From Parvularcula lutaonensis (GTDB taxonomy: Bacteria; Pseudomonadota; Alphaproteobacteria; Caulobacterales; Parvularculaceae), in the NCBI RefSeq assembly GCF_014651915.1, contig NZ_BMXU01000002.1, positions 687,507-751,506 of the forward strand: a DNA stretch of 64,000 nucleotides. Reading direction: 5' to 3'. The position numbers were made by a program, and so were the translations under genes. The notes beneath the pieces were generated by a model. It ran no database searches, was not told the origin of the DNA, and saw only the letters and a list, made by a program, of their open reading frames with translations. Shown here piece by piece: positions 15,153-19,457 of this stretch; within the stretch, counting starts at the first letter, position 1; each line of letters opens with the position of its first letter.

Positions 15153-15202
15153 TTGACACCCTGTCGCGTCCGTGTGACGCATGTCGCACAATCGCGACAG
15201 GG
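15153..15202 (+). promoter_or_regulatory. Putative promoter with nested palindromes for the BlaI/M56-M23 pair
   Basis: TTGACA (15153-15158) is a consensus -35. Directly after it CCCTGTCGCG (15159-15168) is matched by the inverse CGCGACAGGG (15193-15202), a perfect 10-base inverted repeat. Between them TGTGACGCATGTCGCACA is an imperfect palindrome over the expected -10 and start region. The right arm merges with the GGGAG ribosome site of the repressor gene. BlaI/MecI repressors bind palindromes and usually control their own operon, so autoregulation is inferred. Confidence 0.65.
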
Positions 15203-15210
15203 AGCGCGCC

Positions 15211-15591
15211 ATGGCCCAGAACCCTTCCGAGACGGAACTCGTGCTCCTCAAGGCACTATGGGCCTCGGGTCGCCTGAGCGCGCGCGAGGTGCATGACGCG
15301 ACCGAGGCGCGCACCGGCTGGTCGTTCTCCGCGACGCGCAAGACGCTCGAGCGGATGGAGGCCAAGGGCCTGGTCAAGGTCGAGCCGGTCCACGGCGTAA
15401 AGACCTTTGTTCCCACCAAGGGAAAGCTCGAAGTGATGGCGCGGCTGATCCAGAATTTCGCGAGCCGCGTCCTCGACTGCGAGACGCCGCTGCCAGCCGC
15501 GGCTTTCACCGGCAGCCGGGTCATCGAGCCCGGAGAGGTCGACGAACTCGAAGCCCTTCTCGAGCGCCTGTCCGAGGAGGATAAGCCGTGA
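15211..15591 (+). CDS. BlaI/MecI-family winged-helix transcriptional repressor
   Basis: Dimeric winged-helix repressor, 126 residues, of the family inactivated by proteolysis through an M56 membrane peptidase. The N-terminal half reads SETELVLLKALW then SAREVHDA and FSATRKTLERMEAKGLVK, the helix-turn-helix and wing region of BlaI proteins. ATG 15211 is chosen over one ten codons earlier because GGGAG sits 6 bases upstream and the earlier ATG lies inside the operator palindrome. Its stop overlaps the GTG start of the M56-M23 gene as GTGA, the usual repressor-sensor layout. No beta-lactamase gene is nearby. Confidence 0.9.
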   Translation: MAQNPSETELVLLKALWASGRLSAREVHDATEARTGWSFSATRKTLERMEAKGLVKVEPVHGVKTFVPTKGKLEVMARLIQNFASRVLDCETPLPAAAFTGSRVIEPGEVDELEALLERLSEEDKP

Positions 15592-16946
15592 GCTTCCTGT
15601 CCGTTCCCGCGCTCCTCACATGGCTTGTCCTGCCGAGCCTTTTTGCCATCACCCTGTTAGCCGTTCGCCTCCTCATCGAGTGGCGCAGCAAACCGGCTCT
15701 CGAGGATACCACGGAGAAGCGCACACTGGCGTTGATGCTCCTGCCCTTCGTCGCAGGCGCAGCAATCGTTCCGTTTGCGTCCTATCTTCCTGGCATCGTG
15801 CCTTCGATGGCCTATGCCGAGCCGCTTTTGCTGGCTGCTCCGGATGCTGAACGAGCTTTGGACGGAGCGCACGTTGCTGTTGCGAGACCGGCCTTCTTCC
15901 TGCCCGTCCTTCTCGGTGCCTATGTCGCCATGGTCCTCTGGCGCCTTGCCAGAATCCAGAGGGCACGCCGCGCGCTCAGCCGGATCGCCGCAGGGGCGAG
16001 GCCGTCCGTCTTGGGACCGGACGTGGCTACCACAGCGGCTCTGCGGAGCCCCGTTGTCTGCGAACGCGGCACCGTCCTCCTGCCTGAGGCGTTCGCGACC
16101 GGGACCAGCCCCGACGAGCTGGCCCTCATCATCGCCCATGAGCGCGCCCACCACGCGCGTGGCGACCAGCGCTATTTTGTCATCCTTGCCCTGATTGATG
16201 CGGTGTTCTGGGCCCATCCGGCGATACTGCACCAGACCGCCCGCTGCCGACTGGCAGCGGAGCTCGCCTGCGACGAAGCCGTCTGTCGGCAGCGGCCAGA
16301 AATGCGCAAGGCTTATGCCGAGCTGATCGTCAGGGCGCTGCACCATGCCGCCGGAAGCGCACTGCCATGCGCCCCGGCGGTCTTTTCACCTCGAACCAAA
16401 GGAGAATTCGGCATGAGGTTGACCGAGATCATGCGCCCCCGCGCCAGGGCGGGCAAGCGGAGAGGAGGCATCGTCCTTGCCGCCGCCGTCGGTTTGCCGC
16501 TGGTGGCCGGGCAGGTCGCCATTGCGCAGCAGGGTGCGATAGCATTCACTGTGGCGCCTGTTGAAACGGGCAAGGTGACGAGCAGCTTCGGTATGCGCGA
16601 GCACCCGATCGAGAAGCGTCGCCTGATGCATCGCGGCACCGATATCGGTGCAGCACTCGGTACGCCGATCCAGGCTCCGGCAGCCGGTATCGTGACCATG
16701 GTGGTCGAGTCCGACGAGGGCTATGGCAATATGATCGAGATTTCCCACGCCGACGGCGTGGTCACCCGCTACGGCCAGCTCGATACGTTCAGTGTGCGTA
16801 AGGGAGAGAGGCTACGTGCTGGAGAGGTCTTCGCCACGGTCGGCCAGAGCGGTGCCGCGACCGGCCCACACCTCCATCTCGAAGTGTTCATCCATGGCGA
16901 GCGGGTCGATCCTGAGACAATCGTCAAAATGCCCGCTCGTCGCTAG
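15588..16946 (+). CDS. M56/M23 double metallopeptidase (BlaR1-like membrane protease fused to a LytM domain)
   Basis: A 452-residue membrane protein. Three N-terminal membrane segments (about 8-28, 46-66, 102-120) precede an M56 (BlaR1/MecR1-like) zinc protease with H184-E185-x-x-H188 and the downstream ELACDE segment. A fourth membrane segment (about 294-312) leads to an extracytoplasmic M23/LytM endopeptidase domain with intact zinc ligands H348 and D352 (MHRGTDIG) and H428-x-H430 (GPHLHLE). BlaR1 normally has a penicillin-binding sensor in that position. The GTG start overlaps the BlaI-type gene, so the pair is a repressor plus protease unit. Inference: the M23 domain senses or cuts peptidoglycan and the M56 domain cleaves the repressor. 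Confidence 0.88.
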   Translation: MSFLSVPALLTWLVLPSLFAITLLAVRLLIEWRSKPALEDTTEKRTLALMLLPFVAGAAIVPFASYLPGIVPSMAYAEPLLLAAPDAERALDGAHVAVARPAFFLPVLLGAYVAMVLWRLARIQRARRALSRIAAGARPSVLGPDVATTAALRSPVVCERGTVLLPEAFATGTSPDELALIIAHERAHHARGDQRYFVILALIDAVFWAHPAILHQTARCRLAAELACDEAVCRQRPEMRKAYAELIVRALHHAAGSALPCAPAVFSPRTKGEFGMRLTEIMRPRARAGKRRGGIVLAAAVGLPLVAGQVAIAQQGAIAFTVAPVETGKVTSSFGMREHPIEKRRLMHRGTDIGAALGTPIQAPAAGIVTMVVESDEGYGNMIEISHADGVVTRYGQLDTFSVRKGERLRAGEVFATVGQSGAATGPHLHLEVFIHGERVDPETIVKMPARR

Positions 16947-16992: not shown

Positions 16993-17274
16993 TTAGTTGG
17001 GGCTCAGCGATCCTTCACGACCCTGATTGATCTCGCGGCGCTGGGAAATCAGGTCGCCGGACGTTTCCGAGATCGTCCGCCATTCTTCCGCCGTGCGGCA
17101 CACTGGCTTCTTGCGGAGCCGTGAACCGGTCGTCGTCTCGCCCTTGCAGATCAGCGCCTCTTTCGAAGTCTCCGCCGTTTGCGTTGTCTCAGCCGATCCT
17201 GTGGTCGTGCCCTCGGTGGTGGCGCAAGCCGCCAGCAGAGCTACGGCGGTCAGCGGAAGTAGTGCTTTGAGCAT
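16993..17274 (-). CDS. Small lipoprotein of unknown function
   Basis: A 93-residue protein with a lipoprotein signal peptide ending in the lipobox LLAAC (Cys17), then a Thr/Glu/Ser-rich stretch and a short domain with two cysteines (LICKGE and KPVCRTAEEW). KPVCRT..EW is a motif seen in many small uncharacterised alphaproteobacterial secreted proteins. It is probably anchored in the outer or inner membrane facing the periplasm. It converges with the M56-M23 gene; no partner is evident. Confidence 0.75.
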   Translation of the reverse strand: MLKALLPLTAVALLAACATTEGTTTGSAETTQTAETSKEALICKGETTTGSRLRKKPVCRTAEEWRTISETSGDLISQRREINQGREGSLSPN

Positions 17275-17918: not shown

Positions 17919-19457
17919 GTGCTGCTGACCAATGCTTCGGCGATGACCGCCATGAGGACGCTGCGACTGGCCGAGAGCAATCTCGATACAACGCAGAACC
18001 GGATCTCGACGGGTTTCAAGGTCTCCAAGGCCGGTGACAACCCGGCGTTCTTTCTCGTCTCGAACACGGTCCGCGGTGACATCACGGCCTATGAAGGCCA
18101 GCGCGATACCCTTCTTTACGCCCTTGGCGCGATCCAGACGGCCCAGGCGGCGCAGTCCGAGATCGACAATGCTATCCTGAACATCAAGTCGGCCGTGGTC
18201 GCTCTGGAAACGGGTTCAGGAGAGAAGGAACTCGAACGCGTCATTCTCGAACAGGTCGATCAAGTCCGTAAGATCATCTCGGGGACAAGCTTCAATGGCA
18301 TCAACCTGCTCGAACGCGACAATGTCGAGACGTTCCTTCTCGGCTATGAGCGCGAAGGGCGGAGCCTTGATTTCGATACGCTGTCGATCCGTGCACAGGG
18401 CCTAGCCCTGCGGACCGCTCCGGTCAGCGCGACGATCAACCCGCTACCGGGCGCGGCGCTTGATCTCAACTCGCAAAACACATTCGGCACGCCGGGCGCC
18501 TACACACCGCAGAGCCTCGGCTCGATCAGCGGCGTGAATGTCGGCCTCGGGGGCAGCGGCGTCAGCCAGCGGACATTCGCCATCAGTTTCGAGACCGGGG
18601 CTGACATCACGACCGAGCAGATCATCTACGAAGAAGGCGGCGGTATCCGTGGCCTGAACATCTCGATCAGGAACGGTCAGCTGGTCTTCGGTGGCTACAA
18701 CATTCCGAACGACGGCACGACGCCCTGGGGCTACCGCGAGGCGCAGGCGACCGTGCAGGCCAACACGCGGTACACGGCGCAGCTCGTCCTGGACGGCAAC
18801 GCCTCCGCCACGGGTGAGTTCAGGGCTTACCTTGACGGCACGCTCGTCGATACGGCGACGGGCGTCGGCGTCCTCTACAACCACGGCAACGCCATCGGTC
18901 TCGGCCGGATCGCCGGCAACGCCGTCGTCAATGGCGTGGTCAAGAACGACACGGGTGCGGGCCCTACGGGCAACCGGTTCCAGGGTGCGAACGACAAGGT
19001 CGTCCTCTACAACCAGATCTTCACGCCAGCCGAATTCGATCAGATGACGTCCTATCTGGCCGAGGGCTGGCTGCCACCGAAGGGCATCGCCTTTTATATC
19101 GGCAGCCAGGCGCGCCAGGACAGCGCGACGCTTGTCGAGCTTCTCGAAGCCGTCGCGCCTGTCGACCAGCCCGGCTTCTCGACAGCCGCTGCCCTCGAAG
19201 TGCTCGATGCCGCGCAGGAGAAGGCCAACCGTGCCTTCGCCCAGCTCGGCTTCTACGAGGACCGGATCACCGGCCAGCGCGATTACCTCATGGGCCTGAC
19301 GGATTCCCTGGAAGAGGGCGTCGCGGCCCTCGTCGAAGCGGACCTGCAGGAGGAGTCGGCCCGGCTCCAGTCGTTCCAGGTCCAGACGACGCTCGCCCGG
19401 CAGAGCCTCCAGATTTCGAACAGCCGTTCGAACATCCTCCTGACCCTGTTCAACTAA
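17919..19457 (+). CDS. Flagellin with a LamG-like (concanavalin-type) insert
   Basis: A 512-residue flagellin. Residues 1-165 form the N-terminal D0/D1 helices (ESNLDTTQNRISTGFKVSKA, then ISGTSFNGINLL). Residues about 395-512 form the C-terminal partner (EKANRAFAQLGFYEDRI, LVEADLQEESARLQ, ending in ILLTLFN). Between them, about residues 178-375, lies a beta-rich domain with QIIYEEGGGIRGLNISI, YRAYLDG-like FRAYLDGTLVD and KVVLYNQIFTPAEF, which I recognise as LamG-like. Alphaproteobacterial flagellins are often under 300 residues with no insert. The start is GTG with GGGAGAG upstream. No other flagellar gene is in the window. A surface-adhesive or glycan-binding filament is inferred. Confidence 0.85.
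   Translation: MLLTNASAMTAMRTLRLAESNLDTTQNRISTGFKVSKAGDNPAFFLVSNTVRGDITAYEGQRDTLLYALGAIQTAQAAQSEIDNAILNIKSAVVALETGSGEKELERVILEQVDQVRKIISGTSFNGINLLERDNVETFLLGYEREGRSLDFDTLSIRAQGLALRTAPVSATINPLPGAALDLNSQNTFGTPGAYTPQSLGSISGVNVGLGGSGVSQRTFAISFETGADITTEQIIYEEGGGIRGLNISIRNGQLVFGGYNIPNDGTTPWGYREAQATVQANTRYTAQLVLDGNASATGEFRAYLDGTLVDTATGVGVLYNHGNAIGLGRIAGNAVVNGVVKNDTGAGPTGNRFQGANDKVVLYNQIFTPAEFDQMTSYLAEGWLPPKGIAFYIGSQARQDSATLVELLEAVAPVDQPGFSTAAALEVLDAAQEKANRAFAQLGFYEDRITGQRDYLMGLTDSLEEGVAALVEADLQEESARLQSFQVQTTLARQSLQISNSRSNILLTLFN

Follow-up and report, generated by a model that had tools for sequence, protein, structure and literature searches.

A BlaR1/BlaI-like operon of Parvularcula lutaonensis with an M23 domain lacking its general base as the putative sensor

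What does a receptor of the BlaR1 type perceive when its penicillin-binding sensor is replaced by the fold of a wall-cutting enzyme? This question is raised by a two-gene operon of the marine bacterium Parvularcula lutaonensis (genome, 2.95 Mb), found at positions 15153-16946 of a 64,000-nucleotide stretch of contig NZ_BMXU01000002.1, referred to below as the window. The operon encodes a BlaI/MecI-family repressor and a protein that joins a BlaR1-like M56 protease to an M23 (LytM) domain. We consider it somewhat better than an even chance that the two proteins form a BlaR1/BlaI-type circuit, in which an M23 domain acts as the sensor, its metal-binding residues retained and its general base lost.

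The repressor gene (15211-15591, plus strand) encodes 126 residues and matches Penicillinase_R (PF03965, E=5.6e-15). A profile of 38 repressor sequences matches MecI (1sd6, E=6.3e-16, residues 6-122) and BlaI (1sd4, E=6.4e-14) over nearly the full chain; that is, the window repressor has both the winged helix and the dimerisation tail that characterize BlaI/MecI. A start at ATG 15181 was disfavored, as a matter of judgement, because it falls within the operator described below; ATG 15211, with gggag upstream, is preferred. The stop codon of this gene overlaps by 4 nucleotides (nt) the GTG start of the second gene (15588-16946, plus strand), which encodes the 452-residue fusion. Pfam recognizes in it Peptidase_M56 (PF05569, residues 148-257, 16029-16358, E=8.6e-22) and Peptidase_M23 (PF01551, residues 347-442, 16626-16913, E=1.9e-28), and no penicillin-binding domain. 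The overlapping arrangement of a BlaI-type gene and an M56-M23 fusion, which an earlier note had proposed from the letters alone, is therefore confirmed. A hydrophobic stretch at residues ~293-316 (16464-16535) is a probable membrane helix ahead of the M23 domain, and the M23 domain itself is probably periplasmic, by analogy with the topology of BlaR1. An AlphaFold2 (AF2) model based on 35 sequences, 4 of them with M56, has a mean pLDDT of 78.0 and a pTM of 0.53, with pLDDT of at least 90 in 221 of the 452 residues, which belong chiefly to the core of M56 and to the M23 domain; the model places a helix at residues 295-313, in a low-confidence region. A single-sequence model was not usable (pLDDT 41.7). 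Foldseek searches with the former model matched structures of the M23 family, one of them a LytM complex with a substrate analogue (4zyb, TMt 0.80).

To put the fusion in context, relatives were collected by searching the family (62 genomes) and the order (398 genomes), with 4 candidates per genome scored in the order search. At least 132 fused reading frames were recovered, which collapse to 101 distinct fusions, that of the window included, when those with identical last 300 residues are merged. The association with BlaI on which the earlier note had staked its proposal is found throughout: 99 of the 101 have a BlaI gene immediately upstream and in the same orientation, and in the other two a second M56 gene without M23 stands between BlaI and the fusion, so that BlaI belongs to the operon of all 101. 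In these two three-gene arrays (L132:1440-4983 and L133:2075-5648), the intervening M56 protein has a charged tail. A search of named genome contigs with the single fusion protein found no relative.

The protease half resembles that of BlaR1, as had been claimed. A profile of 38 M56 halves matches Staphylococcus aureus BlaR1 (8exp) over residues 22-319 (E=5.4e-18). The HExxH motif occupies residues 184-188 (16137-16151), and H184, E185, H188, E225, D229, Y243 and R277, the last of them downstream of the Pfam domain, align with BlaR1 H201, E202, H205, E242, D246, Y261 and R294; Glu242 is the third ligand in BlaR1. All seven positions are invariant in 101/101 fusions, as expected of a gluzincin domain with the catalytic residues of BlaR1. 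The HEXXH motif, His201, Tyr261, Asp246 and Arg294 are named in the BlaR1 cryo-electron microscopy paper, which also gives Ser283-Phe284 as the autocleavage site and Asn101-Phe102 as the cut in BlaI (PMC9834060). Aligned with the P1' residue Phe284 is Phe266 of the fusion (16383-16385), a position occupied by Phe in 96 of the 101 proteins, by Leu in 4 and by Met in 1. In the repressor, Phe99 (15505-15507) aligns by HMMER with Phe102, the P1' residue of BlaI/MecI repressors; this position is Phe in 95/99 and Leu in 4/99, and the P1 residue of the window repressor is Ala, not Asn. Because the seven protease positions are invariant and the P1' Phe is kept, the repressor-cutting machinery is conserved in sequence, and the M56 half may cut BlaI.

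The M23 half is conserved in a different manner. The ligands H348, D352 and H430 and the catalytic-site H428 are all present, as are H184, E185 and H188 of the M56 half, in agreement with the earlier note, and the domain has the fold and the HxxxD ... HxH signature of an M23 peptidase. The further claim of an intact site does not hold, since the His of the Y-x-H-L motif is replaced by Gln397 (16776-16778). In LytM, the equivalent H260 deprotonates water, H291 stabilizes the transition state, and both are essential (PMC5519744); in place of this pair the window protein has Gln397 and His428. It shares fold and metal ligands with the peptidases LytM, ShyA, NMB0315 and DipM, but differs from them in the Gln at the general base and in the M56 receptor half in front.

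This replacement is common among the relatives. The residues at positions 348/352/397/428/430 read HDQHH in 59 of the 101 fusions, HDHHH in 34, HDSHH in 4, HDRHH in 1 and HDHQH in 1, and in 2 (L036 and L038) every M23 ligand is lost while the M56 site is intact. That is, the base is missing from 66 fusions, and 64 of these keep the other four site residues. Unfused M23 controls from other bacteria read HDHHH in 78/79 cases and HDQHH in 1/79; these controls are the best 80 of 578 loci, partly seeded by a G-x-x-TGPHLH pattern around the last two His, and are therefore a fair comparison for position 397 only. Among the eight other M23 domains of the window genome, inspected by eye, the five with full ligands keep the His and the other three have lost ligands. 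Outside the group, a PadR-type regulator gene overlaps an M23 gene without M56 in a Saprospiraceae metagenome-assembled genome (MAG; L156:2776-3860); its product has Gln at the general base and, by eye, a hydrophobic stretch, and represents a second disarmed M23 domain coupled to a regulator.

The state of the base seems to have changed repeatedly, and the domain remains under constraint. A quick tree built from the M56 halves, independent of the M23 sequences, requires 9 changes to account for the Gln label, and its starred branches force at least 5 of these, so the His/Gln state appears to have changed several times. Five Gln members inside a His clade (L015, L052, L054, L056 and L057) look like changes from His to Gln. 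Close pairs of base-lost fusions (n=33) have a median dN/dS of 0.15 in M23 and 0.114 in M56; for close pairs with complete M23 sites (n=7), the values are 0.257 and 0.161. A looser run, with dS up to 1.5, gave 0.437 for M23 and 0.355 for M56 in the complete-site pairs; the close pairs are preferred on account of saturation. The M23 domain evolves faster than M56 in both runs, yet it is under purifying selection. Since the base is lost, the metal site is kept and selection acts on the domain, we conclude that the M23 domain most likely serves as a sensor that binds and does not cut.

Might the M23 domain instead be the effector, i.e., a membrane-anchored endopeptidase made on demand, with the M56-BlaI pair merely controlling its expression? 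All M23 residues are present in 34 of the 101 fusions, which may still cut; the M23 fold is well modelled; and no other exact operator was found in the window genome or in 18 Hyphomonas genomes (see below), so that the fusion itself may be the output. Nevertheless, we regard this as unlikely, because the base is Gln here and in 59/101 fusions and absent from 66/101, with the M56 site intact in 101/101; because H260 and H291 are both essential for catalysis by LytM, in the text cited above (PMC5519744); and because two relatives lack every M23 ligand. The earlier note had left open whether the domain senses or cuts peptidoglycan: sensing survives this analysis, and cutting is improbable for the window protein, given the Gln base and the loss of the ligands in L036 and L038 with an intact M56 site.

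A further alternative is that the domain is a protein-docking module like EnvC and NlpD, which would sense or recruit an amidase, a division protein or an outer-envelope protein. A review of M23 (PMC9662197) states that degenerate M23 folds mostly act in protein-protein contacts, and the complete ligand loss in L036 and L038 would suit such a role; these two loci also offer a natural test of the need for the metal site. EnvC, NlpD and Csd2, for which the same text describes regulatory or docking functions, likewise have an incomplete site in a preserved fold. But the fusions keep the metal ligands and mostly lose the base alone, usually to Gln. For docking alone, the four other site residues retained in 64 of the 66 base-lost members would be unneeded, and the three other degenerate M23 domains of the window genome have indeed lost ligands. 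We therefore assign this possibility, too, only a small probability.

The notion of a sensing tail on a conserved transducer is consistent with what is found farther afield. Of 241 genomes searched across the class, 138 gave matches, mostly weak. Outside the order, the ten best-matching loci (L267-L276) all carry M56 behind a BlaI-like gene, with no M23 following; Pfam scans of five of them revealed a TonB_C tail in one, a DUF3471 tail in another and no tail above the cut-off in three. Across the 14 loci L263-L276, M23 occurs only in L263 and L264, both members of the fusion group. The same BlaI-M56 core thus carries other tail domains, or unrecognized ones, elsewhere, which fits a constant BlaI-M56 transducer with exchangeable sensors. 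One fusion lies beyond the phylum: a Flavobacteriaceae MAG (Bacteroidota) contains a BlaI-like gene and an M56-M23 fusion (L140), the only fusion among the matches listed from 60 genomes of its family, and possibly the result of mis-binning. The window genome itself has one more M56 gene behind BlaI and without M23 (L001), whose receptor frame spans 813 residues within the locus and ends in a charged tail that looks coiled-coil by eye.

Is there a site at which the repressor would act? At the start of the operon, TTGACA (15153-15158, plus strand) is a likely -35 element of a presumed promoter; a promoter scan found no site. It is followed by a perfect 10-nt inverted repeat (15159-15168 / 15193-15202), which the earlier note had taken for the operator. 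The repeat is unusual, in that, when the 111 nt preceding BlaI were put through 2000 mononucleotide shuffles, a repeat of this length with a spacer of at most 30 nt arose in only 5 cases. As the operator it was rejected, because its arms lie outside the core and are not common to the relatives: across 97 promoters, the paired fraction is 0.66-1.0 at positions 2-8 from the operator centre, in part a consequence of selecting the sites by pairing, and 0.19-0.41 past position 8. The arms are perhaps flanking half-sites. The palindromic region does contain an operator-like site common to relatives, as the footprint at 99 BlaI promoters reveals, namely the 16-bp core TGTGACGCATGTCGCA at 15173-15188, for which the group consensus, drawn by eye, is YGYKACANNTGTMRCR.

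To quantify this footprint, each of the 99 promoters with an adjacent BlaI was given a score of 7 pairs plus 6 core letters (maximum 13), by a rule set after the enriched dyads had been seen. Scores of 11 or more occur at 86/99 promoters and scores of 10 or more at 98/99; dinucleotide shuffling yields 1.4 and 7.8 per 99, respectively. As the site at L061 is a short-contig artefact and L065 has none, 97 are real at the latter level. The window site is supported by its position, with TTGAC 20 nt away as in ten further loci, and by its likeness to those of near relatives; overall, the distance from TTGAC to the core is 20 nt in 11 loci, the window included, 21 nt in 1 and 12 nt in 31, and TTGAC was not found near most operator sites of the long-form fusions described below. 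We thus predict a BlaI/CopY-type operator at 15173-15188 and at about 97 of the 99 promoters examined, a candidate for the nACAnnTGTn-type palindrome that the BlaI/MecI family has at its own promoter.

The candidate operator also brings to mind the copper repressors CopY and CopR, for which the published consensus is RNYKACANNYGTMRNY (PMC7253601). Read on the minus strand, 15175-15186 matches YKACANNYGTMR, the core of this consensus, with no mismatch. This pattern alone proves little, because it matches one other place in the 64-kb window and matches with at most one mismatch are no commoner there than by chance. A related proposal is that the His-Asp-His site is a periplasmic zinc or copper sensor, from which M56 relays metal status to a CopY/BlaI-type repressor. 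Ligands retained without the base would suit this proposal, as would the metal response and nearly identical operator of the BlaI relatives CopY and CopR (PMC7253601). These repressors share the winged-helix family with the window repressor, but the latter lacks their CXC metal motif at its end and has a protease receptor as its partner. The zinc of M23 enzymes is usually held tightly, L036 and L038 lack the ligands altogether, and the sole large cluster of same-strand neighbours is RND pump-like, though not every neighbour was identified; on balance, we find a metal sensor very unlikely.

We next consider what the circuit might control. An exact search of the window genome for TGYGACRNNYGTCRCA gave a single site, at the operon's own promoter, and sites with one mismatch number 5, against 7 in a control, which gives no evidence of further targets. 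In the group g10, probably Hyphomonas, YRYTACANNTGTARYR occurs once in each of 18/18 genomes, at the promoter of the fusion operon; the reversed control occurs 80 times in the same genomes, its TA content being different. This search covered 18 of the 20 g10 genomes in which the fusion was seen (G330 and G366 were left out), and weaker sites are possible. Across the 62 family genomes, exact TGYKACANNTGTMRCA was found 82 times, against 7 in a control, the operons' own sites included. Some BlaI-type sites distal to the operons precede TonB genes at nine loci in eight genomes of a sister genus (L337-L341, L353 and L355-L357; one gene checked by Pfam, the others assigned by likeness, with varying 16-mers) and TonB-dependent receptor genes at L344, L354, L359 and L360. 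Eight g7 genomes share TGCGACAGATGTCACA on one strand or the other; coding conservation explains this, as the sequence lies in an open frame that appeared MoxR-like by eye in the 4/8 loci viewed, and it was dropped as a regulon member.

The genes behind the fusions vary. By a crude reading-frame rule, the next downstream gene lies on the opposite strand in 55/101 cases, on the same strand in 44, and is unassigned in 2; of the largest clusters, three are convergent (23, 12 and 4 loci) and one lies on the same strand (20 loci). These 20 are long forms of 723-892 residues that share an AcrB-type RND pump-like gene, a family read from sequence, the one gene scanned with Pfam being a similar one at L362. 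At that locus (L362:1-6405), a BlaI-like frame, a 919-codon frame (M56 by eye) and an AcrB-type RND pump gene (PF00873) are found, with one BlaI-type site before the BlaI-like frame and one before the pump. The pump gene behind the 20 long forms, together with the BlaR1 ancestry of the protease half, could suggest that the fusion is a receptor for beta-lactams or another antibiotic, with the drug bound by M23. The protein has no penicillin-binding domain, and no beta-lactamase was recognized by eye in the four largest downstream clusters, most single neighbours not having been identified; we accordingly hold a drug receptor to be highly improbable.

The comparison with BlaR1-BlaI and MecR1-MecI of staphylococci and Bacillus licheniformis can now be stated. 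The repressor family, the catalytic and dimer-contact residues of M56, the Phe at both cleavage sites and the grammar of the predicted operator are the same, and so, apparently, is control of the own operon, which BlaR1-BlaI also exerts. The window BlaI lies upstream of the receptor gene, the gene order in S. aureus being different, and no beta-lactamase or penicillin-binding protein target was recognized in the window operon. BlaR1 and MecR1 have a class D beta-lactamase-like penicillin-binding sensor where the fusion has M23; for this reason we do not classify the fusion as BlaR1, but only as working like one.

Several observations weigh against a circuit with a non-cutting M23 sensor. No BlaR1 chain is among the 50 Foldseek matches listed, and the equivalence of Gln397 and LytM H260 rests on the motif and on family alignments. 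Complete M23 sites in 34/101 fusions could hydrolyse, the unfused controls speak to position 397 alone, and fusions with a ruined domain may have been missed, because the search profile spans both domains and four candidates per genome were scored. Covariation of Phe266 and Phe99, considered as a sign of one shared protease, was rejected, as the exceptions in the receptor loop and in BlaI sit in different loci. The window operator scores 10/13, a modest value that 7.8/99 shuffles attain, and no regulated defence gene is seen, the sole exact operator of the window genome being the operon's own. The M56 tree carries long-branch warnings, and its change count cannot separate gain from loss. Finally, in the looser run the base-lost dN/dS rises to 0.475 for M23 and 0.319 for M56, M23 is the slower domain in only 87/288 pairs, and the pairs are not independent.

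Downstream of the operon, the crude rule, which can err, picked a plus-strand frame 327 nt away; we favor a small lipoprotein-like frame on the minus strand (16993-17274), which has no Pfam family above the cut-off. Beyond it, 17919-19457 encodes a flagellin whose variable middle part, between Flagellin_N and Flagellin_C, weakly resembles a concanavalin-type lectin (Laminin_G_3, PF13385, E=0.005, below the cut-off).

How would a circuit with an M23 sensor operate? A BlaI dimer would sit on 15173-15188 and keep the two genes of its operon repressed. In the periplasm, the M23 domain would bind a wall ligand without cutting it, the candidates being stem peptides, cross-linked or not, and fragments derived from the wall. 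Binding or release of this ligand would shift the membrane helices and thereby switch the cytoplasmic M56 protease, which would cut BlaI before Phe99, so that the operon stays derepressed for as long as the stress lasts. The BlaI family can be wired to wall metabolism, since BlaI of B. licheniformis itself binds a peptidoglycan dipeptide (PMC3305447).

Direct sensing of peptidoglycan in Gram-negative bacteria is only partly known. The M23 review counts M56 among the catalytic partner domains present in <1% of M23 entries and demonstrates no role for it (PMC9662197), and no described function of M56-M23 was found in the open-licence literature, which is no proof of absence. In a bolder form, to which we give somewhat less than an even chance, this widespread alphaproteobacterial receptor class has more than once made a wall endopeptidase into a natural 'substrate trap', in which the zinc site is kept, the base is changed to Gln, wall peptides are bound uncut and proteolysis of a repressor is the readout; in Hyphomonas the sole perfect operator would be the circuit's own, and in a sister group the circuit would drive an RND pump. 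If true, an antenna of the same kind as wall-cutting enzymes is coupled to a transducer like the BlaR1 protease, whose structure is solved, and wall sensing would become testable with purified domains. The sensor of BlaR1 likewise has an enzyme-like, beta-lactamase-like fold; BlaR1 would then be one case of a modular receptor family that turns enzymes into sensors.

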